Positions 45,036 through 63,384 of a DNA stretch of 64,000 bases are shown piece after piece. Source of the stretch: Microbacterium foliorum (lineage in GTDB: Bacteria; Actinomycetota; Actinomycetes; Actinomycetales; Microbacteriaceae); contig NZ_CP031425.1 of NCBI RefSeq assembly GCF_003367705.1, positions 2,480,001 to 2,544,000 of the forward strand. Direction: 5' to 3'. Within the stretch, counting starts at the first letter, position 1, and each line of letters starts with the position of its first letter. The notes below the pieces were generated by a model, which worked only from the letters and a program-made list of their open reading frames with translations, was not told the DNA's origin and did no database searches. The translations under genes were made by a program, and so were the position numbers.

Positions 45036-45042
45036 CGCAGTC

Positions 45043-45048
45043 ATCCTA
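45043..45048 (-). promoter_or_regulatory. -10 box of PH-like membrane protein gene
   Basis: TAGGAT on the minus strand, 7 nt before the ATG at 45035. Confidence 0.4.
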
Positions 45049-45095
45049 GGACGAGGGCAGTCGTCACGACGGGCGCGCAACCCTCCGCACGGCAG

Positions 45096-45101
45096 TACCG
45101 T
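45096..45101 (+). promoter_or_regulatory. -10 box of pgi
   Basis: TACCGT, 6 nt before the pgi ATG. Confidence 0.5.
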
Positions 45102-45107
45102 GGATCC

Positions 45108-46787
45108 ATGACCGCTCCCGTTGATCCGACACACACCCCCGCCTGGTCCGAGCTCGCCGCGCTGCGCGAGTCGATCAGCCCCGACCTGCGCGGCTGGTTC
45201 GCCGCCGATGCGGACCGCGCCGAGCGCCTCTCGTTCCCGCTCGCCGATCTCCATGTCGACCTGTCGAAGAACCTCGTGGATGACGACGTCCTCGCGGCAC
45301 TGCTCCGTCTGGCCGAGCAGACGGGCGTCGCCGAACGATTCGCCGCGATGCTCGAGGGCGCGCACCTCAACACCTCCGAGGACCGTGCCGTGCTGCACAC
45401 CGCACTCCGGCGACCGGCCGGAGCCTCCCCGGAACTCACCGTCGACGGCCAGGATGTGGATGCCGACGTGCAGTCCGTGCTCGAGGCGCTGAGCGCGTTC
45501 GCCACGCGGGTGCGCGAGGGCAAGTGGCTCGGGATCACCGGCAAGCGGGTCACCCACGTCGTGAACATCGGCATCGGCGGCTCGGACCTCGGACCCGTCA
45601 TGGTCTACGAGGCGTTGAAGCCCTATGCGGATGCCGGGATCGAGGCCAGGTTCGTGTCGAACATCGACCCCACGGACCTCGCCCAGAAGACCGCCGATCT
45701 CGACCCCGAGACGACGCTCTTCATCGTCGCGTCGAAGACGTTCACCACCCTGGAGACGCTGACCAACGCCCGGCTCGCGCGCGACTGGCTGTGGGCGGGG
45801 CTCACGGCATCCGCGGCGATCGCCGATGACGACGAGGCCCGCACCGACGCCGTCGCGCATCACTTCGTCGCCGTGTCGACCGCCCTCGACAAGGTGGCCG
45901 CGTTCGGCATCGACCCCGCCAACGCCTTCGGGTTCTGGGACTGGGTCGGCGGCCGCTACTCCGTCGACTCGGCGATCGGCCTGTCGCTCGCCGTCGCTCT
46001 GGGTCCCGATGTCTTCCGCGACCTGCTCGCCGGCTTCCATACGGTCGACGAGCACGTGCGCACCACGCCGCTCGAGCGCAACGTCCCGATCCTGATGGGC
46101 CTGCTGAACGTCTGGTACGTGAACTTCCATGGCGCGCAGTCGCACGCGGTGCTGCCCTACGCGCAGCAGCTGAACCGCTTCCCCGCATACCTGCAGCAGC
46201 TCACGATGGAATCCAACGGCAAGTCCGTGCGCTGGGACGGCACTCCGGCGACGACCGACACGGGCGAGGTCTTCTGGGGCGAGCCCGGCACCAACGGCCA
46301 GCACGCCTTCTACCAGCTGATCCACCAGGGCACCCGGCTCATCCCCGCCGACTTCATCGCGTTCGTGAACCCGGCGTATCCGTCGAGCGACGGCGACCAG
46401 GACGTGCACGAGCTGTTCCTCGCGAACTTCCTCGCTCAGACCAAGGCGCTCGCGTTCGGCAAGACGGCGGAGGAGGTCGAGGCGGAGGGCACCGAGGGCG
46501 CCCTCGTCGCCGCACGCACCTTCCCGGGCAACCGCCCGACGACGTCGATCTTCGCGCCGGCGCTGACGCCCCAGGTGCTCGGCCAGCTGATCGCCCTCTA
46601 CGAGCACATCACGTTCACGCAGGGCACGATCTGGGGCATCAACTCGTTCGACCAGTGGGGTGTCGAACTCGGCAAGCAGCTCGCCATGCAGATCGCGCCC
46701 GCGATCGGCGGCGACGCCGCGGCGATCGACGCCCAGGACGCGTCGACCAGGGCGCTGCTGGAGTACTACCGCGCGAACCGGACGTAG
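45108..46787 (+). CDS. pgi: glucose-6-phosphate isomerase
   Basis: 559 residues, normal length. Interconverts glucose 6-phosphate and fructose 6-phosphate. PGI signatures: [55 protein letters not shown], the catalytic Glu in [23 protein letters not shown] and the C-terminal [17 protein letters not shown] with the active-site lysine. ATG 6 nt after a TACCGT box; a strong hairpin terminator follows. It marks the last core gene before the accessory region. Confidence 0.97.
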
Positions 46788-46796
46788 GGGCGCAGA

Positions 46797-46840
46797 AACG
46801 ACGAAGGGGCGGATGCCGCGGCATCCGCCCCGTCGTCGTT
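46797..46840 (+). terminator. intrinsic terminator after pgi
   Basis: An outer 8-bp stem (AACGACGA / TCGTCGTT), one mismatch, then an inner 12-bp stem (GGGGCGGATGCC / GGCATCCGCCCC) end in TTCTCT. Very stable and 9 bp after the pgi stop. Confidence 0.85.
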
Positions 46841-47168
46841 CTCTCGGGCGTCTCGGTTCGGCGGGTGTGCCGCGTCGACATGCTTGGCGCAGATATACAG
46901 CACTTGGCTCAAGGGAACGCTGAAGACAGTCCGAGCCGCTAACTCCAAGACGCGTCGTAGAAGTTGGCACAGTCTTGGGGCCGCGAAATTCAAGGAGTCT
47001 AGGGTCATCAGGTCCGCATGGCTCGTATTGGCTGGTGCGTCACAGCTATCCGAGAGTTTCAGTTCCATCAGCTGGCCGGCGCCGTTCTCGCGGCGGACGA
47101 TCTCCGCTTTCGCCTCATCAGCGACCCGATGTGCCAATATGAAGCCACGGACGGGTGGGGGATGTGGC
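46841..47168. other. 328-bp stretch without a confident gene, island left edge
   Basis: Composition shifts here to lower GC. Open frames on both strands cross it, but none has a ribosome site, a recognisable domain or codon use like the neighbours. The last bases carry GGGGGATG, the probable ribosome site of the OLD-family gene. No integrase remnant, tRNA or clear attachment repeat was found. Confidence 0.5.
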
Positions 47169-49178
47169 ATGCAGCTGTGGAAGATCGAGTTCAACGGGTT
47201 CAAGCGGCTCGACCAGACATCCTGCAATGTCGACGGCCAGACCATCGCATTCATCGGTCCGAACGAAGCAGGCAAGACCAGCGTGCTACGAGGACTCGCG
47301 TGGCTTACCGGCGAGCATGAGGATCCAGCGCTCCCGCTCCGAGATCAGAATCGACGCCAGCGGCCGGCGGATGATGCGGTGGTTGTTCGTGCTCACTACC
47401 GCGTTGACGCCGACGACATCGAAGCGTTGAGGCAACTCGATCTGGACACCGACCAGCCCGTCTCGCTCAAGACAGTCAACCACTTCAGGCTCAATCGCCA
47501 GGCGAACGGTCAGCAGACCACCGGCCTCGAATCGACAGTGAAGCGGAATCCACGGCCTTTCGAGGACGCCTCGAAGCTGCTCGCCAAAGCCGCGTCTCGG
47601 ATGGAGGCGGCGTATGACGTCCTCGATGACCTCGAGATCGACGCCCCGAACGACGCCATCGAAGCGGCAGAGCACTCCCTCGATTCGTCAGACACGGTCT
47701 GGACCCCTCAGCGTGTCGCTCAGTTACGTATCGCGGGCGACGGCCTGCGCACTTTCGTGAATGAGATTGACCAGCAGGATCCCAAACCGAGGAATCTCAC
47801 CGCGCTGCGGACTGCGAGTCTTATCGCGGTCGGTTCCCTCCTGACCGCCGCCGTGGCAGGCGAGCGCGCGGATCCCAGAGATGCGATCCGCGCCGCCCTC
47901 AAGCAACGTGTACCGAAGTTCCTTCTGTTTGGCGACGATGACCGAGAGCTATCGGAGTCGTACCATCTCGAAGACTCATCGCTACGGGAAAGCCCTCCGT
48001 CTCCGCTGAAAAACCTCGTCAGTGTTGCGGGGACGAGCGTGGGAGAGGTGTGGGCTGCCACGACCGGAGGGGATCCAGCAACCATGCGGACGCTGGAACG
48101 CCGCATGAATGAGACTCTTCGCGAGCGACTCCAGCCGATGTGGACCCAGTCTGAGCTCACTATTGAGCTGAGACTGAACCAGGGCGGCGTGTTGGAGGTC
48201 AACATCCTGGAGCTGGATAGCCCCGACTACGTGGTTACGCCGATTGCTGAGCGCAGCGACGGGCTCCGAACGTTCCTCGGACTCATCTGTTTCCTCCTCG
48301 CTGCCAATCTCGATGTTCCCCCGGTGCTCCTCGTCGACGAGGCAGAGCGAAACCTCCACTATGACGCGCAAGCAGATCTGGTGCGAGTACTCACTCACGA
48401 GCTCAAAGTTCACAAGGTGATCTACACGACGCATTCGCCCGGGTGTCTACCCCTCGATCTGGGGACCGGCATCCGTGTAGTCTCGCGCAATGCCGACGAC
48501 CCAGGGACGAGTAGCGTGGCAAACAACTTCTGGACGAATGAACATCCCGGCTTCTCGCACCTGCTCTTCGCGATGGGCGCCGAAGCCGCCGCGTTCTCGG
48601 CTTTTCGCCGCGCGGTCCTCACGGAGGGCGTCAGCGAGATGATTTTGCTTCCCACTCTCTTGCGCAACGCGACCGACGGGTCGCAGCTCGACTTCCAAGT
48701 AGCCTTCGGACTGTCTAACCTCTCGGCGCCGAGAGCCATCAGCTCCGTCGCGCTCATCACTACGTTCTTGGTTGACGGCGACACATCGGGCGGGATCAAG
48801 AAGAAGCAGCTTGAAGATGAAGGAGTTCCGCGAAGTCACATCTTTCAACTACCCAAGGGCAAGGCCATCGAAGACCTCATCGACCGCGCGACCTACTTAG
48901 AGACCGTGAACGAGCTGCTGGCCGAGCGCGGAAAATCGATCCTGTTGAAAGACCTTGCAACGAATGTGACCATTGCGAAAGCCGTTGATGACTACGCCAG
49001 GAACCATCTTGGACTCCCCAACGGAGTGGGACACAAGATCGTCGCCTCTCGCCTCGCGAGCCGAGGAATCGCACTTCCGTTGAACGCGGCTGGGAAGCGG
49101 TATTTGTCGGGTTTGCGACCACAACTTGAAGCGGCTTTCAACGCGCCGTACACGCTGGCCGCTCCCGCCGGCAAGTAG
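47169..49178 (+). CDS. OLD family endonuclease (AAA ATPase plus TOPRIM)
   Basis: 669 residues from ATG 47169 (MQLWKIEFNGFKRL), where the SMC/RecF-like AAA domain starts; the open frame upstream has no domain. Walker A GPNEAGKTS (30-38), signature-like ERSDGLR (361-367), Walker B LLVDEAE (387-393), H-loop YTTHSPG. A C-terminal TOPRIM nuclease follows with TEG (Glu486) and DGD (536-538). OLD proteins cut DNA and act in anti-phage defence (P2 Old, GajA). No UvrD/GajB-like helicase follows, so this is a stand-alone class 1-type member, not a Gabija pair. Confidence 0.88.
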   Translation: MQLWKIEFNGFKRLDQTSCNVDGQTIAFIGPNEAGKTSVLRGLAWLTGEHEDPALPLRDQNRRQRPADDAVVVRAHYRVDADDIEALRQLDLDTDQPVSLKTVNHFRLNRQANGQQTTGLESTVKRNPRPFEDASKLLAKAASRMEAAYDVLDDLEIDAPNDAIEAAEHSLDSSDTVWTPQRVAQLRIAGDGLRTFVNEIDQQDPKPRNLTALRTASLIAVGSLLTAAVAGERADPRDAIRAALKQRVPKFLLFGDDDRELSESYHLEDSSLRESPPSPLKNLVSVAGTSVGEVWAATTGGDPATMRTLERRMNETLRERLQPMWTQSELTIELRLNQGGVLEVNILELDSPDYVVTPIAERSDGLRTFLGLICFLLAANLDVPPVLLVDEAERNLHYDAQADLVRVLTHELKVHKVIYTTHSPGCLPLDLGTGIRVVSRNADDPGTSSVANNFWTNEHPGFSHLLFAMGAEAAAFSAFRRAVLTEGVSEMILLPTLLRNATDGSQLDFQVAFGLSNLSAPRAISSVALITTFLVDGDTSGGIKKKQLEDEGVPRSHIFQLPKGKAIEDLIDRATYLETVNELLAERGKSILLKDLATNVTIAKAVDDYARNHLGLPNGVGHKIVASRLASRGIALPLNAAGKRYLSGLRPQLEAAFNAPYTLAAPAGK

Positions 49179-49192
49179 CCGCGGCGAGATCG

Positions 49193-49654
49193 CTACTCGT
49201 CCCGATACCACGCGAGGTTCTCGGTCGGCGTACCTACGCGAACGGCTTTTCGCCGATACCAGCGAATGAACGGGAGCGCACGCCAACGTACAACCGCCTT
49301 CAATGAGCGTGGGTCGACTTTGCCGTTCGCCCAGGTACCGCTGCCTTCCCCTATTTCGAAGAAAGGGGTGACCATGAACTCCTGGTCGTGCGATTCATCG
49401 GGCTTCAGCGTCCCAACCGTCCACACTTCGTCCAGACCGTCCCCTGGCAAGACTCGGAGCCGAACATCCCAGGCCTCGCCGTTGCCTCGATTGGACACAC
49501 GGATCCGCCACCGTGGTTGCGATGTCTCACTGTTGTCTTTCAGATCGCTGATCTCCACGCGAATGAACGGGCGCTGCCGCCATGCCAATGTAATGAATAT
49601 GGCGACCGCGGAGAGCGCCAACGCAAGCGCAGAGGTCAGTTCGCTGAGGGACAT
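49193..49654 (-). CDS. membrane-anchored hypothetical protein with beta-sandwich-like domain
   Basis: 153 residues from ATG 49654 (GTG 49663 is possible, adding three). One N-terminal transmembrane helix (LTSALALALSAVAIFITLAW), then a strand-rich domain with WRIRVSNRGNGEAWDVRLRV, reminiscent of CARDB/immunoglobulin-like folds exposed on one face of the membrane. Not recognised. Convergent with the OLD gene (14-bp gap) and divergent from the YegP-domain gene. Confidence 0.7.
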   Translation of the reverse strand: MSLSELTSALALALSAVAIFITLAWRQRPFIRVEISDLKDNSETSQPRWRIRVSNRGNGEAWDVRLRVLPGDGLDEVWTVGTLKPDESHDQEFMVTPFFEIGEGSGTWANGKVDPRSLKAVVRWRALPFIRWYRRKAVRVGTPTENLAWYRDE

Positions 49655-49758
49655 ACACGACACTCTCTCAGAATCACTGATTTAGCGTTAGATCAGAAGG
49701 ATGAGACGCCAGATGTCGGCCACTACCCTTCATGCGCGGTGCTCGGTCGAGTCAGCGC

Positions 49759-49764
49759 TATCGT
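49759..49764 (+). promoter_or_regulatory. -10 box of YegP-domain gene
   Basis: TATCGT, 6 nt before the ATG at 49771. Confidence 0.45.
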
Positions 49765-49770
49765 GAGCCC

Positions 49771-50322
49771 ATGGATGAGACCACCGCCACGCTCATCGCT
49801 GCCATCATCGCCGCGGCCATCGCGACACTCGGCCTCGCATGGTCAGTCGTCAGTTTCTTCATCACTCGCCGCGCCCAACAGGCAGACGCCGCGCGGCAAG
49901 AGTGGGCGAGAAGGTACGAGCAGGCATTCGCGCAGGCGCTCAGCACGGATGCACGTGAATCCGCAGCGGGGCTGATCCTCATCGAGAAACTGTCCAAGGC
50001 CGAATGGGCGACCGACGAAGATCGTGCGACCGCGGCGAGCGTCCTCTCCTCTCTGGCGCCTTCACCCGATGACGAGGCGGCACACATCCGAGCCGCCGTC
50101 GTCAGCGCCATCACCGACAAGAGTGTCGCCGAGCAGCTGAAAAATGCGGCCGTCGGTCCACGGGGTCGATTCGAGGTGTACCACGACCGCGCCGGCGCCT
50201 ACCGCTGGCGGTTGAGGGCAGGGAATGGTGAAGTTCTCGCAGTCAGCGAGGGCCACGTCACGAAGGACGCGGCCCTCCGCTCCATCGACATCGCGAGAAG
50301 AACACTCGGCGCTCCCGAATAG
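49771..50322 (+). CDS. membrane-anchored protein with C-terminal DUF1508 (YegP-like) domain
   Basis: 183 residues. One N-terminal transmembrane helix (about 9-31, IAAIIAAAIATLGLAWSVVSF), a charged helical middle (RRAQQADAARQEWARRYEQAF) and, from about 129, a YegP/DUF1508 unit (GRFEVYHDRAGAYRWRLRAGN, then GHVTKDAALRSIDIARR). The middle also resembles small phage or defence membrane proteins. DUF1508 function is not settled. Start ATG 6 nt after TATCGT. Confidence 0.72.
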   Translation: MDETTATLIAAIIAAAIATLGLAWSVVSFFITRRAQQADAARQEWARRYEQAFAQALSTDARESAAGLILIEKLSKAEWATDEDRATAASVLSSLAPSPDDEAAHIRAAVVSAITDKSVAEQLKNAAVGPRGRFEVYHDRAGAYRWRLRAGNGEVLAVSEGHVTKDAALRSIDIARRTLGAPE

Positions 50323-50388
50323 TGAACGGTCGGTGCAGCGAACTCGATACGGGAGATCGCGGGTACCCGGGAGACGCAGGCTCCAGCC

Positions 50389-51286
50389 TCACGCCCGAGA
50401 CCGCTTCCGTTGCGCGCACTCCTTGAACCCCCGCTTGCTGTTCGCCCGCGAGTCCCCGGTCGACGGCCAGTCGTGGCCACAGGTCTGGCATTCCCACCAG
50501 ATGCGCTTGCCAGTTCCGGCCACCACGTCCTGAGGGGTGAGGTCGCCATTGCGGGATAGCGAGAACTCCGCGGTCATTTCGGGTCTGGTTGTCGCCATGT
50601 CGTTGAACCCCACCCACACTTTCTTGCCACTGCAGTACGGGCAGCCGGTGCCTGAACGGACTCTGTGGTCGCCGGACACATCCCAGTCGTGACCGTGCGG
50701 GGTGCATAGCCACCACAGCTTGTGGGAGGTGCCGGCCACGACGCTGCCCGGGGTCCGCTCACCGTTCTTCCACGGGTGGAACTCGGCGGCCAGGTCCGGT
50801 CGCGTCACCCGCATGCAGTTCTTCTTGCTGACGGCACGGTTCGAGCAGTAGCGGCAGCCGACACCCTCGACGCGCTTGGCGATGACCCCGTCGTAGTCGC
50901 ATCCGTTCACGCACTTCCACCATGCCTTGGCGGAGGACCCCGGGAACACATCCCGCGGGGTAAGGTCGCCGTTCATGGTCTCGTGCCACATGGCTGCTAC
51001 CTCGGGCGCGACGGTTGCCAGGCATGTGCTCGGGTTCACCACCTGGTGGGTGCAGACCAGGCACTGGGAGCCGCGGGTCCGGTTGGCGGGCGTCGTCTCA
51101 TAGTCGTGGCCGAGTGGGCATGTGAACGTCATCGTGCACCCGGAGCCTGCGACGACGTTGTCGGCCGTGCGCCCTTCGCTCAGTGCCTCGTTGACCTCGG
51201 CGGCGATGTTGGGGTGGGTGGCCCAGCAATAATGCGGAATAAAATCCGCAGAATATGAAAATGCGACCCAAGAACCGGAACAGCAC
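50389..51286 (-). pseudogene. zinc-ribbon (DUF4379-like) repeat protein, probably truncated
   Basis: The frame encodes about four repeats of a treble-clef zinc-ribbon unit (WWKC..GCDYDG..R..GVGCRYC, WWLCTPHGHDW..R..GTGCPYC, WWECQTCGHDW), as in DUF4379 proteins often linked to nucleases. No credible start: the only in-frame GTG (51324) lies before the hairpin that terminates dgt, and the first repeat is preceded by an AT-rich scar. The last repeat lacks its second CxxC (GFKECAQRKRSRA). Both ends look damaged, so it is called a remnant; a TTG start near 51285 cannot be excluded. Only the repeat-bearing part is given. Confidence 0.55.
51233..51250. repeat. AT-rich inverted repeat at truncated zinc-ribbon gene
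   Basis: TGCGGA-ATAAAA-TCCGCA, within a patch of about 40 bp of unusually low GC (51224-51265) where the zinc-ribbon protein loses homology. Possible recombination or insertion scar. Confidence 0.45.
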
Positions 51287-51287
51287 A

Positions 51288-51320
51288 AAGGAGGGCCGGC
51301 GACAACCGCCGACCCTCCTT
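51288..51320 (-). terminator. hairpin terminator after dGTPase gene
   Basis: AAGGAGGG-C-CGGCG and CGCCG-A-CCCTCCTT pair with one mismatch and an ACAAC loop, 57 bp beyond the dgt stop. On the minus strand it is followed by TGTGCTGTT. Confidence 0.75.
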
Positions 51321-51376
51321 GCACTCAGCCCTTGCCGAGCGTCGATCCGGCTGCGACGTATCCTGTCTGGCCGGAC

Positions 51377-53026
51377 CTAACTGTCCAGCCAGCTAACCGG
51401 CATCGAACCGGGCTCTCGCGAGCCGTTCAATTGGGCGGCGAGAGTTGCAAGCTGACTGTCCCGCATGCCGCAGAGAAAGTCGACGACGGATACGGCCACG
51501 GCGAACTCTGTGGCTGCGGTTATATTGACGGTCACGCCGCCCGCATCCTGGAGCTTAGCGATAGACTTCGGGCTAGTGTTTGCCAGGATGTACTCGCGGA
51601 GCGTTGCGGGTAATTCGCGGTAAAGGTTCGCGAGGTCGTTCAGTGGCACAGCACGAGTTCGCGATTTTTCATCTCGGCTGATTCGCTGGATCATCTGGCG
51701 GCTCATCTGGCAGTAGGTATCGAAGACCTGCTCGAGACTGTTCGCTTGGCCCGACTGCATTGCACCCAGCGCCCCGGTCTGGATGACAAAGTAGTCGTTC
51801 AGCGCCTTAAAGAATTCGGCAATGAGAATCCCACTGGGGTGGATCCGCAAGTTTAGCCGCTGGCTACTCCCGTCGTAGTTCACCGACGTTGCTGCGCTAA
51901 GCAGGCGGATCATCGAGCTCGCGAATCGCTGCAGCTTCTCATTTGCATCGTGCGTTCCTGAGAATGGGCCGCTAGGAAAGGACGAATTCTTCGCGAGCGC
52001 CTGCAGGAGTTTCCACATTTCTGGCAGGGAGGCGGTGAGACTGGAGCCGTCGAATGAGATGCTCTTTGAGAGCTTCTCCGCGACATAGATGAAGCAAGAG
52101 CGGATCTCGTCGTCTCGCACGTCCTTGAACGACGAGGTCATCCAGTCCGTGCTCGAGGGAAGATCTTGCAGCCCGGTTCGTACACGATGGAGGGGCAGCA
52201 TCCCAGCGCGGAAGAAGTCCTCGGCGTCGTGGACGGCGTAGGTGATGTCGTCGGCCCAGTCCATGATCTCAGCTTCGATCCAGCGGTCGACTCGGTTCAC
52301 CGCGCCATTAACGCGTTCGGTGCGCACGAACTCCTCGTCTTCGAGTTCACCCAGAATGGACGCCTCCTCGGGGTAAAAGTTCCACTTCTTCTCGAGCTTC
52401 CCCACCCCCGCCGGATGCTGCCCCTTCTGCCACGGGTATTTCGCGATGGCAGCGAGGGAGCGCAACGTCAGATTCAAGCCCAGCGGGCTTTCGCGACGCG
52501 CGGACAGAGAAGCCACGATCCGGGTGGACTGAGCGTTGCCCTCGAACGCGCGCGTGGAGAGCGCAGTGAGGCCCTGCCTTGTTTCCTCGACCTCGTGCTC
52601 GGACATTTTTCTGGTCGCTGCAGCCTGTTCAGCCCACCGGTCAGGGAGGCGTTCGAAGATGGTCTGCAGCTGGTGTTCGCCGGCATGCCCAAATGGTGGG
52701 TGGCCGATGTCGTGAGCGAGCCCGGCGACGTAGCAGTAATCGGGGTCCACCCAGCCTGCGATGGGCGCGTTCTGAGGGCCTACAAGCGGGTGCTTGTGGG
52801 CCAGTCGGCGAGCCAGCGTTTCGGCCACCTGCGCGACCTTGAGAGAGTGTGTCAGTCGGTCGTGGAAAAGGTAGCCCGACTGCGGAGGGATGACTTGAGT
52901 GACTCCGGAGAGCCGCCTGAACTCGCGAGAATAGAAGACTCTGTCCTTATCCACGTGGGCATCTGTGCGCCAGGGCTCCGGATTCCGGGTGAGATTATGA
53001 ACGCGTCGGGTCGAGTTGCGGACCAC
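51377..53026 (-). CDS. dgt: deoxyguanosinetriphosphate triphosphohydrolase-like protein (dGTPase)
   Basis: 549 residues. HD-superfamily dNTP triphosphohydrolase. The metal site is complete: HDRLTHSLKVAQ with His60, GLAHDIGHPPFGHAGE with His105-Asp106, and EIMDWADDITYAVHDAEDFF with the last Asp. R-R-L-x-x-x-T-Q-V (FRRLSGVTQV) is the dGTPase N-terminal mark. Splits dNTP into nucleoside and triphosphate; some members defend against phage by draining dNTPs. GTG start only 5 nt after the stop of a 96-residue gene, so translation is probably coupled. Confidence 0.92.
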   Translation of the reverse strand: MVRNSTRRVHNLTRNPEPWRTDAHVDKDRVFYSREFRRLSGVTQVIPPQSGYLFHDRLTHSLKVAQVAETLARRLAHKHPLVGPQNAPIAGWVDPDYCYVAGLAHDIGHPPFGHAGEHQLQTIFERLPDRWAEQAAATRKMSEHEVEETRQGLTALSTRAFEGNAQSTRIVASLSARRESPLGLNLTLRSLAAIAKYPWQKGQHPAGVGKLEKKWNFYPEEASILGELEDEEFVRTERVNGAVNRVDRWIEAEIMDWADDITYAVHDAEDFFRAGMLPLHRVRTGLQDLPSSTDWMTSSFKDVRDDEIRSCFIYVAEKLSKSISFDGSSLTASLPEMWKLLQALAKNSSFPSGPFSGTHDANEKLQRFASSMIRLLSAATSVNYDGSSQRLNLRIHPSGILIAEFFKALNDYFVIQTGALGAMQSGQANSLEQVFDTYCQMSRQMIQRISRDEKSRTRAVPLNDLANLYRELPATLREYILANTSPKSIAKLQDAGGVTVNITAATEFAVAVSVVDFLCGMRDSQLATLAAQLNGSREPGSMPVSWLDS

Positions 53027-53031
53027 TTCGC

Positions 53032-53322
53032 TTACCGGGCAAAGGACAGCTCGAAGATGTCTGAGCTCTGCCGCAGCGCACCCTCGTCGCTCAGCCTCCA
53101 GACTGCGCTGGAAGCCAGTGACTCGTTGACCTCTGCTTCGGTTGTGAGCTGCTCAATGAGTTTTGACTCGGAGATGGAGGCGTTGCGCTTGAGGATGCTC
53201 TTCGCAACTGCGACAACCTGCGAGAAGACCTCGGCATCATGCGCTGCACTTCTTTGCAGCACCGCGATCCCCTCAAGGACCTCGCTGCTCGGTACGACAT
53301 CATCTGTCCAGACGGTGCTCAT
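53032..53322 (-). CDS. small protein upstream of dGTPase, winged-helix-like
   Basis: 96 residues, ATG with GGGGA 4-5 nt upstream. No named family recognised. The second half (KSILKRNASISESKLIEQLTTE... ESLASSAVWRLSDEGALR) has the helix spacing of a winged helix, with SSAVWRLSDEGALR as a plausible recognition helix and wing. Its stop is 5 nt before the dgt start. It could regulate dGTPase expression or activity. It is not similar in sequence to known dgt partners I can name. Confidence 0.68.
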   Translation of the reverse strand: MSTVWTDDVVPSSEVLEGIAVLQRSAAHDAEVFSQVVAVAKSILKRNASISESKLIEQLTTEAEVNESLASSAVWRLSDEGALRQSSDIFELSFAR

Positions 53323-53437
53323 CAGTTCCCCATTCTCCGACGCTGCCGAGAGTCAATTACCTCGCTACCAGCGGTGACGCTATGCTCTCACACTACCCCG
53401 CCCCTCTCGCCGCCCGGCCCTGACTCGCGAACACGGT

Positions 53438-54577
53438 CTAATCTAGGAGTGTCAGTCGGGGGCGTTCGTCGTGGGCGCCAAGCATGCGCCGAACGTGAGC
53501 GGGTGTCCACGCGAGTTCTGTGGCAAGCTCGGGAATCGTAATGCCTCGCTGCTCCGCGAGTTCGACAGCAGTTGAGAGCAGCGACGGGAGCTCGCCGGGG
53601 AACTGCGCAACTGGCTCGTGCACTATGCCGACCTGATTGAGGCGGATGTAGCCTCGGCGTGCGGTGGCCTCGGAAATCTTTCCGAGCTCGCGGCTGCGGT
53701 AGACAACAGACTTGGGCTCTACGCCCCATTCGCGGCTCACCTTCAGCACATCTGCCATGTCTAGCCGAGTCTTCAGCCGAGGTTCCATTGCGGCCCGCGG
53801 TGTGAGGAACTCCGCCGCGAACTTGTCGGCCTCACGCTCGATGTCCGCGGTGCCGGCGACACGTCCACCGTGGAGGATGATGTGCCCCAGCTCGTGAGCC
53901 GCGCTGAACCGGTGACGGTAGACATCGTCCGCCCGGTCGGGCGAGAGCACCATCACTGGTCGGTTGAACGCCGACGTTGAGAATGCGTCGATGCGTGCAA
54001 CCTCGGCCTCGACCATCGGGACGAGGACAGTGACAATCCCCTTGGACTCCGCCAGGCGAACCACCTGTGGCACAGGCTCATCGCCCAGATTCCACGCTTC
54101 ACGCAGCTGCCTAGCAGCCGCGGCGGGGTCGGCAGAGAAAGTGCCCGGCGCGATCTCCCCGCCTGCAAACCCCTGGATGTCGATGGAGGGGAAACGCACG
54201 TGCCGCTCGAGAGCGTTCGCGAGTTCCCAGACCTGTTCCGTGTAGGAAACGGCCTTTTTCCGCTGGCGAGAGGTCGTCGCCCGCAGGCTGCGGAAGAACA
54301 CACTGTCTGACTCGAGCCGAACCCGGGGCCGCCCCGCCGCGAAGAAGCCGACGGGTACCTTCAAGAAGCTGGCGAGCTTCTCGACTGTGTCAGCCCGCGG
54401 CGGAGTGACGCCTGATTCGAACTGGCCGATGGCTGCTGCGGACACACCGACAGCGTCAGCCACGTCCTGCTTCGTCCGCAGCGCGAGCTGCCGCGCTTGC
54501 TGCAACCGTTCGGGGTCGAACGCGCGCGCGACGGTCGCTGGGTCCGCGGCCGATGTGCCGCCCGAGATCGGCCTCAC
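53438..54577 (-). CDS. XRE-ImmA/IrrE fusion protein
   Basis: 379 residues. N-terminal HTH (about 23-78: RLQQARQLALRTKQDVADAV, AIGQFESGVTPPRADTVEKLA) and a C-terminal ImmA/IrrE zinc peptidase domain with AAHELGHIILHGG and EREADKFAAEFLTP. The extreme C-terminus (ITIPELATELAWTPAHVRRML) adds another helical DNA-binding-like segment. The GTG overlaps the stop of the 239-residue partner gene (GTGA). HTH-peptidase fusions with a partner protein occur as toxin-antitoxin-like and anti-phage modules. Confidence 0.9.
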   Translation of the reverse strand: MRPISGGTSAADPATVARAFDPERLQQARQLALRTKQDVADAVGVSAAAIGQFESGVTPPRADTVEKLASFLKVPVGFFAAGRPRVRLESDSVFFRSLRATTSRQRKKAVSYTEQVWELANALERHVRFPSIDIQGFAGGEIAPGTFSADPAAAARQLREAWNLGDEPVPQVVRLAESKGIVTVLVPMVEAEVARIDAFSTSAFNRPVMVLSPDRADDVYRHRFSAAHELGHIILHGGRVAGTADIEREADKFAAEFLTPRAAMEPRLKTRLDMADVLKVSREWGVEPKSVVYRSRELGKISEATARRGYIRLNQVGIVHEPVAQFPGELPSLLSTAVELAEQRGITIPELATELAWTPAHVRRMLGAHDERPRLTLLD

Positions 54578-55293
54578 TGGCTGCCCCTTGCGAGATCGTC
54601 GTCCTCACGTACAGCCATGTCGAGGCTCCGCATCGGCGCTTCGTCGAAGCGGCGCGGTTCGCTCGCCTCGTCCGTGACGTCGAGGTCGAGCGCCACCTCG
54701 ACGGGCAGTTCTTCGTGGTGGAGCCAGATCACTGCGCCGTTGCCGTCGAGGTAGCCGTCTCCAATATGGATCCGCTCGAGGCCAGCGCGGTCACTCGCTA
54801 CGAACGCGACGAGTACAACAGCTTCAGCCTCGGATGTCGGGGACACGAGCTCTTCGGTGCCCTCGTCGTCCTGCCACTCCTCCAGGGGAAGGTACTCCTC
54901 GGGGCGACGCTCGACATCGGACAGGAGTTCGTCGCGGAACTGCGACCAGCGGATGACGAGGCGATCAGCCTCGGGGCCCGACTGCGATGCACACTTCGCA
55001 GCGTAGATGGTGGTGCCAGCGACGACGGGCAGGTGGAAACGGCTGCCTTTCGGGCGGATCTTACGCACGTTCTGGACCTCGGCGAGCTCTTCGACGACGC
55101 CGAGCGCGAGCACCTGCCAGAACGTTGCCCCGTAGGGCTCGTCCGTGCGCAGACCGCTCGTCGCCTTGGTATCGGCTGACGTGTCATGCGCGGATCGGCC
55201 GGCTCGAATAAGGGCAGCTGCCACGGTGGGCGCCGCATCGCCAAACCGTGAGCGGAACCACTCGCTCCCGCCAAGTTCTTGTGCCGTGTTCAT
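54574..55293 (-). CDS. partner protein of XRE-ImmA module, unknown
   Basis: 239 residues. Not recognised by name. An alpha-helical N-terminal third is followed by mixed strands: GATFWQVLALGVVEELAEVQNVR, SRFHLPVVAGTTIYAAKCAS, VVLVAFVASDRAGLERIHIGDGYLD, and AVIWLHHEELP. The last two resemble a repeated pattern seen in proteins encoded next to XRE-ImmA genes in other actinobacteria. ATG with GGGGG upstream; first gene of the pair. It could be the toxin or the sensed partner of the peptidase-repressor. Confidence 0.75.
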   Translation of the reverse strand: MNTAQELGGSEWFRSRFGDAAPTVAAALIRAGRSAHDTSADTKATSGLRTDEPYGATFWQVLALGVVEELAEVQNVRKIRPKGSRFHLPVVAGTTIYAAKCASQSGPEADRLVIRWSQFRDELLSDVERRPEEYLPLEEWQDDEGTEELVSPTSEAEAVVLVAFVASDRAGLERIHIGDGYLDGNGAVIWLHHEELPVEVALDLDVTDEASEPRRFDEAPMRSLDMAVREDDDLARGSQ

Positions 55294-55394
55294 ACATCCC
55301 CCAGCTTTCTCACGCCTAACCGACTCCTATACTTTACATCTATTCCGAAAACAAACACAAGCGGTTCAGTGCTTAGCGAGTCCGCCATGGCCTT
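55294..55394. promoter_or_regulatory. low-GC promoter region upstream of XRE-ImmA operon
   Basis: About 100 bp with AT-rich blocks (TATACTTTACATCTATTCC, AAAACAAACACAAG), far below the window's GC. On the minus strand TTGTTT and TAAAGT-like elements could form the promoter of the 54574-55293 gene. No palindrome of note. Confidence 0.35.
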
Positions 55395-55850
55395 TTGCGC
55401 AGATCCCTAGACTCGCACGTTCCGCTCGAGGAGATGCTCACCGTCGGCGGTCACCGTATCCTGCCCACCCCCGTACTGGCGCCCGGTCTAGGACTCGAGG
55501 AGATACACGAGGTGATCCGGCTCACCGAACGGGAGAATACAGACGCGGTGCGCACCGCCGACGGCGAACTTCGCTTCGAGTATGCGTCTATCCACCTCGA
55601 GGTCATCCTCACGCTGGCCGAAAAGCGAAGAATCCGCGCCTGGAATGCAGCCGCATACATCGCCCAGCAGGTCTTCCCGGAGCTCACCGTTCTGGATTCG
55701 ACCAAGACGCCGGTCACCATGCTCGACGCGCTCCCACGCCACGACGGCGTCGACCAGCGGTCGTTCCACGGCATGTCGAACTTCCCGCTGAGCGTCGCAC
55801 CGCCGGCCTGGTTCCCCAAGGCAGGGATGCCGAACGTCGTGTTCAGCTGA
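55395..55850 (+). CDS. hypothetical protein in island
   Basis: Up to 151 residues from a TTG; an internal ATG at 55434 (MLTVGGHRILPTPVLAPG) gives 138 and has GAGGAG too close to be a normal ribosome site, so the start is uncertain. Sequence is well-composed (ELRFEYASIHLEVILTLAEKRR, AAAYIAQQVFPELTVLD), with an amphipathic helix and strands, but no family recognised. It lies tail-to-tail with the KAP gene. Could be 5'-truncated. Confidence 0.5.
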   Translation: MRRSLDSHVPLEEMLTVGGHRILPTPVLAPGLGLEEIHEVIRLTERENTDAVRTADGELRFEYASIHLEVILTLAEKRRIRAWNAAAYIAQQVFPELTVLDSTKTPVTMLDALPRHDGVDQRSFHGMSNFPLSVAPPAWFPKAGMPNVVFS

Positions 55851-55932
55851 CGGATCTGCCGGGAGCTTATTGAGGCGCGGTTGCCGGGTCCACAGTGACA
55901 ACGCTAGCCTCTACCGCCCACTGCACCTCCGG

Positions 55933-58900
55933 CTAGCGCCGACCTCGGATGCGCTTGACAACTCCCCAAAGGGGCGAGTTCTTCGTTGCGAAACCATGGT
56001 CGACCAGCCATGCGATATCTTGCTTGGCGACGTTCCCCTCGCCTTCCTCCGCCCAGCGGGAGACGAGAGGTTTCAAGGATTTTGTCGCTGCGCTCGGAAG
56101 CACGCGGGCGTACGCCCGGAGAAGCAGGACTCCTGACGCCAGCTCTGTGCGCTTCTTGTCCTGCGCCATCACCTTTACCATCGCGCGCACCTCATCGGCC
56201 GCGTCCGATCTCACCGGAAGCTGCAAGAACGTCTTCACGGCGCGCTCGCGGACGGATACGGTGCCCGCTTCGCGAACTGCCTGACCCATCTGCTCATAGA
56301 TCGCGAGGTTCAGACCCGCTTTGCCGAGGGCGCCAATACGGTCGAAGGGCGCCTGCTTCTTCACCATGAACTGCCACGCCTCCCCGCGCTGCTCTTCGGT
56401 CGCGGACGCTCCGAATCGACCCCACGCCCCCGCGGGGATGGTCACTACATTCGGAACGCGCTCGACATCAGCGACCGGCGGCGCCGTAGAGAGCCATGCT
56501 GCAGCGAGGGGGCGATTGAACTTTGCTTCACTCAGCGCCGCCACCGGCTGGGGCGGGAGCGTCTCGACGTCCAGGCCACCGGACAAGGCGCAGATCTGCG
56601 CCGCCAAGATCACGCGAATGACGAGCTCGGGATTGTCCTGCTCCCACGGTGCCCGCGCACTCAGCTCTGTCGCGACGAACGCGGCAAGCGACGGGTCTTC
56701 AGCTCCTAGGGACGACGCGAGGATATCCACCGCGGCACCTTCAGCTTGAGCAGCAACGACCGCGGTCAGATACAGAGTGGCGCGTTTATGCCCGGTCGTC
56801 TGAGGATCATCATCGAGGATGTCGAGGACCTTCAACAGTCGTAGCTGTGTCTCGAATCGAGAGTCCGAGTATTCATCCCAGTCGGTCGCGAGGTCGCTTC
56901 GAACCAGCTCGACTACCTCAGTCAGGTCAAACTCATCGGAACGAAGCTCTGCGACGGTCTGCGCGGCTATGGAACCGGCCTCGCGGGTTGCTTCGTTCGA
57001 GCTTTCCGTGACGAGCTTGAGGATGGCGCGCAGGGCGTTGTCCTTGCGCGATGCGGATACTGACCTACTTGTGTCGAGCTTGTCCCGCCAGCGGGCGACA
57101 CGTCCGGGACGGTCGTCTATCGCGCTTAGCAGGAGAGTGTTCGCCTCATCCACCTGTCCGCGCTCGATGTCCCGGTCGATGAGCGAGTCATGCAACTCAT
57201 AGAAGCCTCGCCCCTTCTCAACACGTCTGAACACGCGCAGGAGATCTCGGCGCACCTCCGAGTTCAGGGTCATGTCAGCCCACCCCGACGCGAGACTTGC
57301 AGCGACCTCGCGGTTCGCTCTACGCTGCGCCTCGTACGCCTCATCGTTCTCCGCGTCCTGTTCCTCCGCCGCCGCCTTCGCTGCAGCCGTAGCGGATGCC
57401 GGTTCGACTGGCTTCGGTGCGATGGCTGTAAGCGACGCGGCGAGGGCGTCTATGTCGTCCCAGGGGATGTCCGCCTCGATGTCGCGGGAGTACCGCACGA
57501 AGAAAGCAGATGCAACATCCGGAGCAGCGACAGCATGCTCGAGAACTATCGGCAGAAGGTCACTTCGGGCGGTCTCCCAGTCGTCCTCGCCAATGCTGAT
57601 GACAAGCGTCCTGACGACCTCGGCGACACTCGCTCCGCGCTGCGCGGACGCGACTCGGAGAATCGTCTGCATCTCTGACTGGTCGTACGCTGCGGCGGCC
57701 GCAGCCCCGAAACCTTGAAGGCTTCGAATCGTCATTCCACCGACGGACGAAGACACTCGTCCGCGCAGTAGACGCGCGAGTTCTGGTTCGACGGCCGACA
57801 GTTTGGCGGTGATCTCACCGACGAGCACGACGAGCCGATCCGAGACCTCCCGAGCCTCCTTCTCAGTCTGATCCAAGAGATAACGAACCGCTTCTGCGAG
57901 GTCGTGCTCGCTTGCTTCGCTCAACGCGCCCAGGACGTCCTTTCGAGGCATGTCAGCTGCGGAGAGGAGCTCGTGGTAAACGCCGGGATCGTTGAAAGCA
58001 AGGAGTGACCCGTCGGAGTGCATCATGATGAGGTCGGCCCGGGGCTCCGGCACGTGACGTTCCTTAAGAAGGCGTAGGTACCGCTGCAGGTTCTCCTCGA
58101 GTCGCCCTGCAACCTCGCGCTTATCGTTTCCCACGACCTCGTCGAGCGGCGTAGGTTCACCAGCGGCGTCTTCGGAGTACTGCTTGACGAGCGCATGAAG
58201 CGATTCACGATTCGGCACCTCATCGCCGTAGAGGAAACGCATGAGCGCGGGCTCACGTTCGAGATCCGCAGCCAGGCGCGGGAACTCCGTCTGCAGAACC
58301 GTGAGCACTGCGATCTCCTCCGCCCTGTCGAGCCAGTCAAACCCCATCCCCTCGTAGACGCGCGCGTTGACCGCGAAGTCGTTGAGCAGCACCTTGGTCC
58401 TGCGAGGACTGGCCAAGTGCATGGGAGACAGAATGTTGACAACGCGGTCGAGGAGGTCCGGTTGGTCGGCGCGAAGCTGGGCCCACACTCCGCCGCGCTC
58501 TCGTACGAGTGAGGTGGCGAAGCGTCGGAAGGTGTGGACCGGCTGCGGGGGAAGTGCGAGCTGGAACTGGAAGATCTTGTCGAGATACTCACCACTCGTG
58601 CGGTAGTACGGGGCTGCGTTCTCACGTGATGTCATCGCCCCCAGCTTGGTGGCGATGACCCCCGCGATGGCCTCCCGGTCGAACGCGACGACGAACACGC
58701 ATCTGGGGTGACCGAGAAAGGTGCGGAGACCCTCGAGGGTAGCCATCACGTCGTCCGGGCTACACCGGTCGAGTTCATCGATGAAGATCACGAAGCGATG
58801 ATTCTTCTTCGTGTTCAATATTTCGTGGAAGAGCTTGCCGAATTGAGCAACATGGCTCGGTGTCGACTTCGAGACCGTGACTTTGGATAGTTCGATGACG

Positions 58901-59487
58901 GCGAGGACGACAACCACAACGAGAGTGCCACTCGCTGCCATGCTCGCGAATCCGCCGATGTTCTCGGAGTAGAGGCTTGGGAACTCGCGATCCATACCAA
59001 GGATCAGATGGAGAACGGTCCAGATCGCGGGTAGACCGAGGAAGATGCCCACGAGAAAGCTGACGAGCGTCGCGATCCTGCGACGTTTGCTCCATTGAAG
59101 ATCTGTCAGCGGACCACGCACGGAACTCGTCGACTGAAAGAGCTTGTCGGAGATCTTGACATCCGCGTGCATCTGTTCCGCCACCTCTGAAAGGAAGTTG
59201 GTCCGAAACCCGGTACCCGCGTTCTTCCATGCGTCGAAAGTGATGTGCTGTGTTTTCGAGGCGTGCGAGCTCAGCTCCTCCCGAAGTAACGCGTTGAAGC
59301 TGCTTTTGCCCGATCCCCAGGGACCGAACAGAGCGACGTTTACGTTTCCGGACGACGACATCGCCAGTTCTGCCGTTCGTTGCGCCAGCACACGGTGATG
59401 TAGCAGATCGTCTTTCGCGCCGATGCTGCCTGTCCTCGTACCGAGTGGCTCATCCGGAACGAGGTCCTCCGCGCTGAGTGCACGCAT
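55933..59487 (-). CDS. KAP family P-loop NTPase with two membrane helices and long helical C-terminus
   Basis: 1184 residues from ATG 59487; the ATG two codons upstream leaves no room for the AGGGGA ribosome site, which sits 6 nt from this one. Residue numbers count from the upstream ATG. Walker A GPWGSGKS (57-64), FDAWK (86-90), two transmembrane helices inserted in the NTPase domain (about 140-166 and 183-203), Walker B FVIFIDELDRCSPD (234-247), as in KAP/PifA ATPases. From about 480 a long helical region, perhaps HEAT-like, has no named domain. Some KAP proteins restrict phage. An HTH gene lies upstream on the same strand. Confidence 0.88.
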   Translation of the reverse strand: MRALSAEDLVPDEPLGTRTGSIGAKDDLLHHRVLAQRTAELAMSSSGNVNVALFGPWGSGKSSFNALLREELSSHASKTQHITFDAWKNAGTGFRTNFLSEVAEQMHADVKISDKLFQSTSSVRGPLTDLQWSKRRRIATLVSFLVGIFLGLPAIWTVLHLILGMDREFPSLYSENIGGFASMAASGTLVVVVVLAVIELSKVTVSKSTPSHVAQFGKLFHEILNTKKNHRFVIFIDELDRCSPDDVMATLEGLRTFLGHPRCVFVVAFDREAIAGVIATKLGAMTSRENAAPYYRTSGEYLDKIFQFQLALPPQPVHTFRRFATSLVRERGGVWAQLRADQPDLLDRVVNILSPMHLASPRRTKVLLNDFAVNARVYEGMGFDWLDRAEEIAVLTVLQTEFPRLAADLEREPALMRFLYGDEVPNRESLHALVKQYSEDAAGEPTPLDEVVGNDKREVAGRLEENLQRYLRLLKERHVPEPRADLIMMHSDGSLLAFNDPGVYHELLSAADMPRKDVLGALSEASEHDLAEAVRYLLDQTEKEAREVSDRLVVLVGEITAKLSAVEPELARLLRGRVSSSVGGMTIRSLQGFGAAAAAAYDQSEMQTILRVASAQRGASVAEVVRTLVISIGEDDWETARSDLLPIVLEHAVAAPDVASAFFVRYSRDIEADIPWDDIDALAASLTAIAPKPVEPASATAAAKAAAEEQDAENDEAYEAQRRANREVAASLASGWADMTLNSEVRRDLLRVFRRVEKGRGFYELHDSLIDRDIERGQVDEANTLLLSAIDDRPGRVARWRDKLDTSRSVSASRKDNALRAILKLVTESSNEATREAGSIAAQTVAELRSDEFDLTEVVELVRSDLATDWDEYSDSRFETQLRLLKVLDILDDDPQTTGHKRATLYLTAVVAAQAEGAAVDILASSLGAEDPSLAAFVATELSARAPWEQDNPELVIRVILAAQICALSGGLDVETLPPQPVAALSEAKFNRPLAAAWLSTAPPVADVERVPNVVTIPAGAWGRFGASATEEQRGEAWQFMVKKQAPFDRIGALGKAGLNLAIYEQMGQAVREAGTVSVRERAVKTFLQLPVRSDAADEVRAMVKVMAQDKKRTELASGVLLLRAYARVLPSAATKSLKPLVSRWAEEGEGNVAKQDIAWLVDHGFATKNSPLWGVVKRIRGRR

Positions 59488-59493
59488 ATCCAT

Positions 59494-59795
59494 TCCCCTG
59501 TCATCAAACTGGATTGACTCTATCGGGATGAATAGACATCAACGCATGAATGGCGTGGCCGCCTCGAAGTCCTGCGGATATACGACCCTGGCCATCGCTC
59601 CTGCCTTTCGTTCTCACCATCGAGGATGGACCGTCCTCCCTGCGTGAGGGGCCGTAACACCGTGACGGCAAGCGCCGAGACGTGGAGCGCGCTCTCCGAC
59701 TACATCAGCTGCAGCCAGCGAGCTCTTGTCCTTGCGCCGCGAATGGCGCGAGTTAGACGCGCGACATGAGGTCCGCGACGCGGCATCACCGATCT
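59494..59795. other. 302-bp gap between HTH gene and KAP gene
   Basis: No domain-bearing protein is encoded. On the minus strand it holds a tiny 18-codon frame (59539-59595) with a plausible ribosome site, listed separately, and a KAP leader with AGGGGA. The rest is featureless. Confidence 0.45.
59539..59595 (-). CDS. possible 18-residue leader peptide or gene remnant upstream of KAP gene
   Basis: Encodes MARVVYPQDFEAATPFMR. AAGG lies 8 nt before the ATG, and the stop is 45-52 bp before the KAP start. It reads like the beginning of a normal protein cut short, so it may be a remnant; a regulatory leader peptide is the alternative. Weak evidence. Confidence 0.25.
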   Translation of the reverse strand: MARVVYPQDFEAATPFMR

Positions 59796-60095
59796 TCACG
59801 CATCAGCGCTCGGCTCGTCACGTCTTTCGCGTGCTGGCCACAGCGGTTCGCCGAGCGCGTGCTCACGCAGAGCAATCGTGCGCAGATCCGGCCAGCGGGC
59901 GCCCGACCGGATGTTGCGCAACGTCCCCTCGTCGAGGCCGGCAATGTCCGCGATTCCTCGTACGCTTTGACCACGAATCGCTCGTCGAACGCGGAGGGCA
60001 AGTTGACGTGCAACCTCGCCAGCAACATCCGAGGAGGGAGCATCGGTCCAGGAGGGAGTGAGGTCGGCAGGAGTAGCGCGCTGAGACTTTGGCAT
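59796..60095 (-). CDS. small HTH DNA-binding protein upstream of KAP gene
   Basis: 99 residues from ATG 60095. C-terminal XRE-like HTH: VRRAIRGQSVRGIADIAGLD, then EGTLRNIRSGARWPDLRTI and ALREHALGEPLWP, a pattern found in actinobacterial single-domain repressors where the first helices read SVRGIA..G. The N-terminal 25 residues are polar and Pro/Ser-rich. Three GCGCCA repeats spaced by 18-19 bp lie upstream and may be its operator. Probably controls itself and perhaps the KAP gene 308 bp downstream. Confidence 0.72.
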   Translation of the reverse strand: MPKSQRATPADLTPSWTDAPSSDVAGEVARQLALRVRRAIRGQSVRGIADIAGLDEGTLRNIRSGARWPDLRTIALREHALGEPLWPARERRDEPSADA

Positions 60096-60139
60096 AGCAC
60101 CTCGCAAAAAAGTGGCAGAGCATTAGTCGCGTATTTTCA

Positions 60140-60186
60140 TGCGCCAACTAGACCATCAGCGCCAGACTGTTTGAACTGCGCCAACT
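60140..60186. promoter_or_regulatory. three spaced GCGCCA direct repeats (iteron-like operator)
   Basis: TGCGCCAACT at 60140, AGCGCCAGAC at 60158 and TGCGCCAACT at 60177, starts 18 and 19 bp apart, that is close to two helical turns. The first and third are identical over 10 bp. They lie 45-90 bp upstream of the HTH gene start and before the nrd terminator. Confidence 0.6.
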
Positions 60187-60193
60187 TGAGTGG

Positions 60194-60224
60194 TGTGCGG
60201 CGCCGCGATGCGCGACGCCGCACA
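60194..60224 (-). terminator. hairpin terminator of nrd operon
   Basis: TGTGCGGCG-C-CGCG / CGCG-A-CGCCGCACA with an ATG loop; one internal mismatch. It starts 8 bp beyond the nrdF stop. Confidence 0.8.
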
Positions 60225-60231
60225 GCGGGAC

Positions 60232-63384
<3,153 letters not shown>

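Follow-up and report, generated by a model that had tools for sequence, protein, structure and literature searches.

The pgi-nrdF island and its borders

In the Microbacterium foliorum genome, the convergent core genes pgi (44787..46787, plus strand, start uncertain; PF00342, 5.5e-194) and nrdF (60232..61212, minus strand) enclose an island of about ten genes transcribed from both strands. We analyzed it within a 64,000-nucleotide stretch of DNA (the window), which covers positions 2480001-2544000 on a single contig of 3.57 Mb in the genome that we label G000. A mixed-strand gene block had been described here in an initial annotation made from the sequence alone; it lies between the gene ends at 46787 and 60232, and domain scans recover the families named at the time, including an OLD-like AAA ATPase, a dGTPase, an XRE-ImmA protein, a KAP NTPase, and small proteins. 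The island is an inserted unit with exact ends and belongs to a family of such elements behind nrdF. We think it probable that this unit of 13,359 bp is a site-specific transposon that is non-autonomous, has Tn7-like ends, and carries defense-type genes.

The borders follow from an empty site in a closely related Microbacterium genome, G134, where pgi and nrdF lie 90 bp apart and a single hairpin stands between the two convergent genes. NrdF of G134 is 100% and PGI 98% identical to that of the window, and the aligned flanks are 96.1% and 99.6% identical. The junction with this site places the element at 46866-60224. Its first bases are TGTGCCGCGTCG and its last bases CGACGCCGCACA, forming an imperfect terminal inverted repeat in which 11 of 12 positions match, and GCGGG flanks each end as a 5-bp direct repeat (46861..46865 on the left, 60225..60229 on the right). 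The left end (LE; 46866..46992, plus strand), delimited by a gapless MAFFT alignment of G000, G071, G014, and G076, combines the terminal repeat TGTGCCGCGTCG with subterminal TTGGC repeats. The right end (RE; 60093..60224, minus strand), delimited by a profile from seven genomes, combines the terminal repeat TGTGCGGCGTCG with a hairpin and three subterminal TTGGCGC-type repeats, to which those of the LE are similar.

Several features remarked on in the initial annotation look different in this light. Its borders, 46841-60190, are corrected to those given above. Of the hairpins said to close the two core loci, both are strong (z -5.3 and -5.8); the terminator-like one at 46791..46841 (z -5.3) is that found between pgi and nrdF in the empty site, and the one on the nrdF side belongs to the RE of the element. 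The lower GC content holds in comparison with the pgi side (0.58-0.67 inside the island versus 0.67-0.71) and not in comparison with the nrd genes; the latter likewise have a GC content of 0.60-0.64, so the right border is not visible in the composition. Neither a tRNA nor an Rfam match at the gathering threshold occurs in the window, and the open reading frames (ORFs) of the element that were scanned gave no integrase family, in agreement with what had been stated. Border repeats had not been found at first and do exist, in the form of the 5-bp direct repeat and the terminal inverted repeat.

A family of elements with shared ends

We searched 149 Microbacterium genomes for NrdF and PGI and matched NrdF in 143 of them. 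(A PGI match is absent from 34 of 135 good-quality genomes, to be explained by a true loss or by an isomerase of a very different kind.) The two genes lie on one contig within 30 kb of each other in 18 genomes, read by eye from two tables and leaving out G060, which has only a pgi remnant. The intervals range from the 90 bp of empty G134 to 29.8 kb, their contents vary, and the cargo is not conserved between genomes, which excludes an identical gene set in all relatives and supports the earlier view of a defense-like accessory island at a variable site. By blastn (1e-5), the ends and not the cargo matched among the first 20 neighboring loci (0/20 for cargo). Against all 257 loci, matches fell only in the gene for a small helix-turn-helix (HTH) protein at the right end. 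Among the pgi-nrdF intervals, blastn found the end sequence to be common to the window, G071, G014, and G125. The term "old hot-spot" used at first thus captures the variable site and understates the island, because exact ends define one transposon-like unit of a family.

A search pattern in which the 3' end of nrdF is followed, after 3-10 bases, by TGTGCGGC was matched in 18 of 366 Microbacterium genomes, and a reversed-pattern control was matched in none of the 366. The RE terminus lies 5-8 nt past the nrdF stop codon in these 18 genomes; the RE always points toward nrdF, as the pattern demands, and the LEs were found on the far side. We extended 17 of the 18 sites and recovered the LE in 7, giving element lengths of 1.9, 5.0, 5.5, 6.9, 12.1, 13.4, and 19.7 kb. 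The alignment of the four LEs named above is gapless over 130 columns. A profile built from them, which matches those four by construction, independently found G575, G050, G657, and G446 in the extended set at 7e-19 to 5e-12. The RE profile was built from G000, G071, G014, G125, G050, G137, and G132, with the same proviso, and it matched all 10 nrdF-site pieces outside its build (9 at E<=4e-17 and G459 at 1e-5), the first 8 bases of which were fixed beforehand by the search pattern. No LE match was found in plasmids. In a family-wide sample, a relaxed pattern was matched in 1 of 398 genomes, 9 of which are Microbacterium; the single match is G000 itself, and the search thus turned up no autonomous version beyond Microbacterium.

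An alternative is that genes accumulated piecemeal in a permissive gap flanked by convergent core genes, through homologous recombination of the flanks and without any mobile unit. This would fit the observation that pgi-nrdF intervals lacking an RE vary too, many of them with metabolic-looking genes (by eye). Against it stand exact ends, a terminal inverted repeat, direct repeats, shared LE and RE sequences, a fixed orientation, and the same behavior behind an unrelated gene, and we consider it very improbable; plain accretion is largely refuted by the recurrent exact ends.

The border repeats bear on the chemistry of insertion. Perfect 5-bp repeats flank three of the seven elements with a known LE and are unlike in sequence, GCGGG in G000, CAGAA in G014, and ACCCG in G050; G657 is flanked by a 9-bp repeat. 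The probability of at least three perfect 5-mers among seven is near 1e-7 if each base, at this GC content, matches by chance with a probability of about 0.27. Because the duplicated border sequences are unrelated, DDE transposition is favored over tyrosine recombination, and we regard DDE chemistry as likely. An RE-like palindrome lies 2-4 bp before the LE in G076 (L063/L143) and in G071 (L014 9590-9625), possible traces of tandem insertion at one and the same site; since its LE abuts this palindrome, G071 may be such a case.

In G134, G088, G124, G125, G072, and strain P30, HTH homologues also occur behind a second target, a gene for a dihydrolipoamide acyltransferase-like (E2) protein. The E2-site element of G124 is bounded by a perfect 22-bp inverted repeat and flanked on each side by TCAGT, a sequence that includes the stop codon; that of G072 is likewise flanked by TCAGT and has a weaker terminal inverted repeat (13/18). 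No LE was found in the 20 kb examined at the E2 sites of G134, G088, and G125. G013 has an RE-like sequence behind an acyl-CoA dehydrogenase-like gene, where no LE was found, and G088 has a 38% HTH homologue adjoining nrdF without an RE. The start of a small protein, MANGDIRTYYEDGQWKS..., is common to the E2-site region of G124 (L092 8923-9366) and the nrdF-site region of G132 (L087), which suggests cargo exchange between the lineages of the two target sites. At L097, L099 (9841-10400), and L100, the HTH gene precedes a MerR-type gene that has its own start, and we did not count this as a target site. In L099, another MerR-type frame has its N-terminal codons in front of the HTH gene, and the regulator may have been rebuilt by a mini-insertion consisting of the HTH gene alone.

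The shared HTH gene and the search for a transposition enzyme

The HTH gene (59796..60095, minus strand) encodes a protein of about 90 amino acids (aa) and has homologues at the right ends of other nrdF-site elements. When 11 island proteins were compared by tblastn with the 16 other nrdF-site pieces, only the HTH protein matched, in 11 of the 16, and in G575 and G446 the match covers less than half its length. With the window included, 12 of 17 nrdF-site pieces have the gene at their right end, truncated in some. An all-against-all comparison of six-frame ORFs of at least 60 aa from 23 regions (17 nrdF-site and 6 elsewhere, with 12 kb taken where the LE was not located) gave the same picture: the HTH cluster comprises 16 regions, the second-largest cluster comprises 6 and, in our reading, reflects frames antisense to the HTH gene, and all others comprise at most 3. 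At sites other than nrdF, there are relatives of the DUF4379 protein of the island in G013, of XRE-ImmA in G124 and G134, and of the KAP NTPase in G072.

The island HTH protein had no family match in its scans, and one homologue matches HTH_3. PADLOC and the first NCBIfam scan at 59789-60100 used a frame other than that of the HTH gene, and the HTH protein was scanned separately. A search at E<=0.01 matched 53 of 149 Microbacterium genomes, and rows weaker than about 1e-7 were then set aside; at E<=1e-6, the family is present in 47 of 299 Microbacteriaceae genomes and 28 of 85 genera. It was not found in phages and was found in two plasmid records, both Curtobacterium.

In the scanned ORFs of the element, Pfam, PADLOC, NCBIfam, and PHROG revealed no transposase, integrase, recombinase, or relaxase family, and the TnsB (rve), TnsC, and TniQ/TnsD families of Tn7 were likewise not found. 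TniQ occurs in 19 of 149 Microbacterium genomes at E<=0.001, 14 of them over the cut-off, and in none of the eight RE carriers of that sample (G000, G014, G050, G071, G083, G125, G132, and G137); the LE and RE profiles had no match at E<=1 in 17 TniQ surroundings. The whole genomes of G014 and G125 have no rve match at E<=0.001, that of G000 has three, all outside the window, and none lies at the nrdF site among the matches listed for nine genomes. In a set of 53 ORFs from sister elements, the 25 of 30 families listed include rve and OrfB_IS605, each with a single protein. This rve protein is of the IS3 insertion sequence (IS) type and lies in G050, and IS3-type genes also occur in G657 and G599 (by eye); in the all-against-all comparison, such IS-type genes are not common to the elements. 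Two other classes of element were rejected: an integrative conjugative or mobilizable element (ICE/IME), as Pfam and NCBIfam scans showed no integrase or relaxase/conjugation genes, and a prophage, as no structural family was among the matches of general scans, with no further search made.

An autonomous element would have to encode its transposase in an unrecognized family among the cargo. Island proteins without a family do exist (53032-53322, 54574-55293, and 49193-49663), and a transposase would be expected in every element with near-identical ends. Since both tblastn and the all-against-all comparison find the HTH gene alone to be shared with the nrdF-site pieces, we give this explanation very little credence; the 239-aa protein at 54574-55293 moreover overlaps the XRE-ImmA gene and has no match in those pieces.

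The relatives of the HTH gene in several other Microbacteriaceae genera have a different setting. There the gene is divergent from one for a Xer-like protein, which is followed by a protein of about 590 aa. The best NCBIfam match of the Xer-like proteins is a XerD model at 1.6e-6, below its cut-off. An alignment of five sequences of the ~590-aa protein shows an invariant D, D, and E in an IS4/IS5-like context, which by our own reading is a DDE triad; one of four copies scanned has a weak IS1182 match (3.3e-5). The ~590-aa gene ends 215-272 bp from the 3' end of a tRNA in the five loci aligned. The module loci (L175 3728-8433, L177 11376-14430, L178, L181, and L182) lie near the 3' ends of Ser, Leu, Ala, and Met tRNAs, and restriction-modification-looking genes lie near some of the modules (by eye). 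Together, the DDE-like, Xer-like, and HTH genes possibly form an undescribed site-specific transposition system. Because its terminal sequences are unlike LE and RE (by eye), the link to the island consists only of the HTH gene and its orientation, and we hypothesize that the module and the HTH gene of the island have a common origin.

The Xer-like neighbors also lend some support to another explanation, in which the island is a tyrosine-recombinase island of the GInt/SE/Tn554-like kind that has lost its integrases, with the terminal inverted repeats serving as recombinase arms that enclose a short spacer and the HTH protein as a GinD/Srap-like helper. In the Microbacteriaceae relatives, the HTH gene is not only divergent from the Xer-like gene but also transcribed away from the target, and, in the parts of PMC5385486 and PMC10214605 drawn on here, GInts and SEs are site-specific, have repeats that are inverted or direct, and encode a fourth, small protein. 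On the other hand, the perfect 5-bp repeats of three nrdF-site elements are unrelated in sequence, and the spacers of SEs, in what PMC10214605 says in the part used here, are 6 bp long with two sides of different origin. The tRNA-adjoining sequences of the recombinase-bearing elements are unlike LE and RE (by eye), and no recombinase was found in the element. We therefore hold this explanation to be unlikely.

If the island is a DDE transposon moved from elsewhere, as we prefer, a transposase acting in trans would recognize the subterminal repeats, which we infer to be its binding sites, and would pair the ends. The ends would then be joined 3' of the nrdF stop codon, leaving pgi and nrdF intact and providing nrdF with a new hairpin, and the HTH protein would probably regulate this process or help to pair the ends. 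In this way, the element would serve to swap defense modules and would parasitize the transposition machinery of another element. More tentatively, one can picture a satellite-transposon lineage specialized in immunity that discarded its transposase, kept two complex ends and the HTH gene, and is moved in trans behind nrdF or E2, with the HTH gene inherited from the undescribed IS1182-like DDE, Xer-like, and HTH system of other Microbacteriaceae.

Cargo and relation to known systems

ORFs were called with a simple GC3 script. The OLD-like AAA ATPase gene (47166..49178, plus strand) lies in an ORF that opens at 46884, its start being set at the ATG preceding the Walker region. The protein is an ATPase by Pfam (PF13175, 2.1e-16; PF13304, 9e-15) with partial PADLOC matches to AriA/GajA/Old, and its TOPRIM-like motifs were seen by eye alone. 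Two proteins with a single N-terminal hydrophobic helix (by eye) follow, one of 156 aa without a PHROG match (49193..49663, minus strand) and a DUF1508 protein (49768..50322, plus strand; PF07411, 8.7e-11). What had been called a zinc-ribbon remnant is a 311-aa protein that matches the DUF4379 treble clef in four stretches (50389..51324, minus strand; PF14311, 1.7e-50). The dGTP triphosphohydrolase (51377..53026, minus strand; TIGR01353, 3.2e-58; PADLOC dGTPase, 5.1e-66) exceeds the curated cut-off of TIGR01353 (198.1 versus 152.35 bits) and is under that of the anti-phage dGTPase model NF041026 (158.1 versus 400 bits); a 96-aa protein that has no family in Pfam, PADLOC, NCBIfam, or PHROG is encoded immediately upstream (53032..53322, minus strand). 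A further dGTPase-like gene lies outside the island in the same genome (G000:C1:2055762-2056379).

The XRE-ImmA protein (53438..54577, minus strand) joins an HTH domain to an M78 peptidase (PF06114, 2.6e-17; PF01381, 7.4e-13) and is RmrA-like (PADLOC PDLC03955, 1.7e-88, in a library without a curated cut-off). The gene of its 239-aa partner (54574..55293, minus strand) overlaps it. A homologue search gave 21 matches at E<=0.001 including the partner itself, those that are named being "hypothetical protein" (Microbacterium, Frigoribacterium, and Agromyces); no PADLOC family matched at 0.01, so the RmrT toxin was not matched, and a PDB sequence search with alignments of this protein and of the ~590-aa DDE-like protein returned nothing. 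This orphan partner is a candidate defense component. Beyond an uncertain 151-aa gene (55395..55850, plus strand), which is an ORF without a family in the scans, lies the gene for a 1186-aa KAP P-loop NTPase (55933..59493, minus strand; PF07693, 3.3e-28), which has partial PADLOC matches to QatA/PifA and is far under the QatA cut-off (97.7 versus 600 bits). Judging by family membership, the genes of the island may act in anti-phage defense, through dGTP depletion, an OLD-type ATPase, an RmrA-like protein with its orphan partner, and a KAP NTPase.

Family matches suggest a defense function most strongly in the sister elements. PADLOC finds Avs3a in G050 (1083 bits), the PycC cyclase of Pycsar in G137 (3.4e-92), the PDC-S28 helicase in G014 and G132, an HNH-effector domain in G014, and RmrA in G124 (1.8e-111), and Pfam finds a KAP NTPase in G072 (1.2e-23). 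A PADLOC tally of 53 ORFs from 11 elements other than that of the window (98.7 kb, including outside DNA where the LE was not used) adds the ThsB TIR model, PDC-M65B, and PDC-M05A among the 25 of 47 families listed. The control set comprised 73 ORFs (99.0 kb) from 14 pgi-nrdF intervals of 13 genomes without an RE, and among the 25 of 35 families listed for it, mad3 has three members and mad6, PD-T4-6, the C3a189 kinase, MkoA, and PglW have two each. By our own reading, most of these are ordinary kinases and ATPases, and elements and controls differ in kind more than in the raw number of matches. In G001 (L005 1167-3377), a 737-aa protein matching PDC-S73 and TIR-Argonaute models lies between pgi and nrdF without element ends.

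A number of observations weigh against our interpretation. The empty site of G134 reads ACGGG once, one base off the GCGGG repeat. The flanks of three of the seven LE-bearing elements (G071, G575, and G446) are unmatched, and 1 of the 18 sites, in G083 (L142/L252), is a 3' end of nrdF at a distance of 100 kb from the main reading of the gene, which is itself split into two pieces. HTH frames contain a stop in G014, G071, and G125, short HTH pieces are all that was found in G575 and G446, and no HTH gene was found at the right ends of G459, G536, G539, G552, and G083; given these stops and the five right ends without the gene, decay is common. Metabolic-looking genes lie behind the RE of G459, G552, G539, and G083 (by eye), and the control intervals match defense models too, PDC-S73 once at 3.8e-113 among the families listed. 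HTH relatives beside Xer-like proteins in other genera point to another chemistry. Finally, no moving enzyme was found in the element, and it is from this absence that we infer mobilization in trans. If the elements do move in this way, other mobile elements carry immunity genes along as satellites, and the enzyme that is missing here is a concrete search target.

Tn7 inserts in one orientation and has 5'-TGT ends, which are asymmetric and carry several subterminal repeats, and it generates a 5-bp duplication. The island resembles it in its 5-bp border repeat (the empty site being one base off), its terminal inverted repeat starting with TGT, subterminal repeats at both ends, and oriented insertion behind a conserved gene, with the RE 5-8 nt past the nrdF stop codon (18/366). 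It differs in that TnsB, TnsC, and TniQ were not found in the island, that TniQ is present in none of the eight carriers, and that a small HTH gene stands at the right end. Since the defining transposition genes were not found, the island is of the Tn7 type in behavior and yet no member of that group. Site-specific insertion behind a conserved gene and variable cargo rich in defense genes are described for Tn7-like transposons in the portions of Benler 2021 (PMC8649781) and Faure 2023 (PMC10293859) used here; the term nrdF occurs in neither paper, nor does dihydrolipoamide occur in PMC10293859. Among open-licence papers, we found none on nrdF-site or transposase-less defense transposons.

The terminal repeats, site specificity, and variable cargo of GInts and SEs, as given in the same parts of PMC5385486 and PMC10214605, have counterparts in the island, and their fourth protein, which is small and helix-loop-helix or HTH-like, may correspond to the HTH protein. 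The island differs in that no tyrosine recombinase genes were found in it and in its identical 5-bp border repeats of varied sequence. With the modules of IS1182-like DDE, Xer-like, and HTH genes, it shares a homologous HTH gene transcribed away from the target gene; unlike them, it is without DDE-like and Xer-like genes and has other terminal sequences. Its RmrA-like XRE-ImmA protein (1.7e-88) recalls RosmerTA, from which it departs in an orphan partner that matches no PADLOC family. Chromosomal defense hot-spots with conserved flanks and variable defense cargo are reported for other species in the parts of PMC10250203 and PMC10121019 considered here. Defense islands are usually described as loosely delimited hot-spots, with neither their units nor their means of transfer established. 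Unlike those hot-spots, the island has a defined unit, defined ends, and border repeats, as well as sister copies in many species, and because the ends are exact to the base and the search pattern is simple, such cargo can be excised from Microbacterium genomes with known borders.

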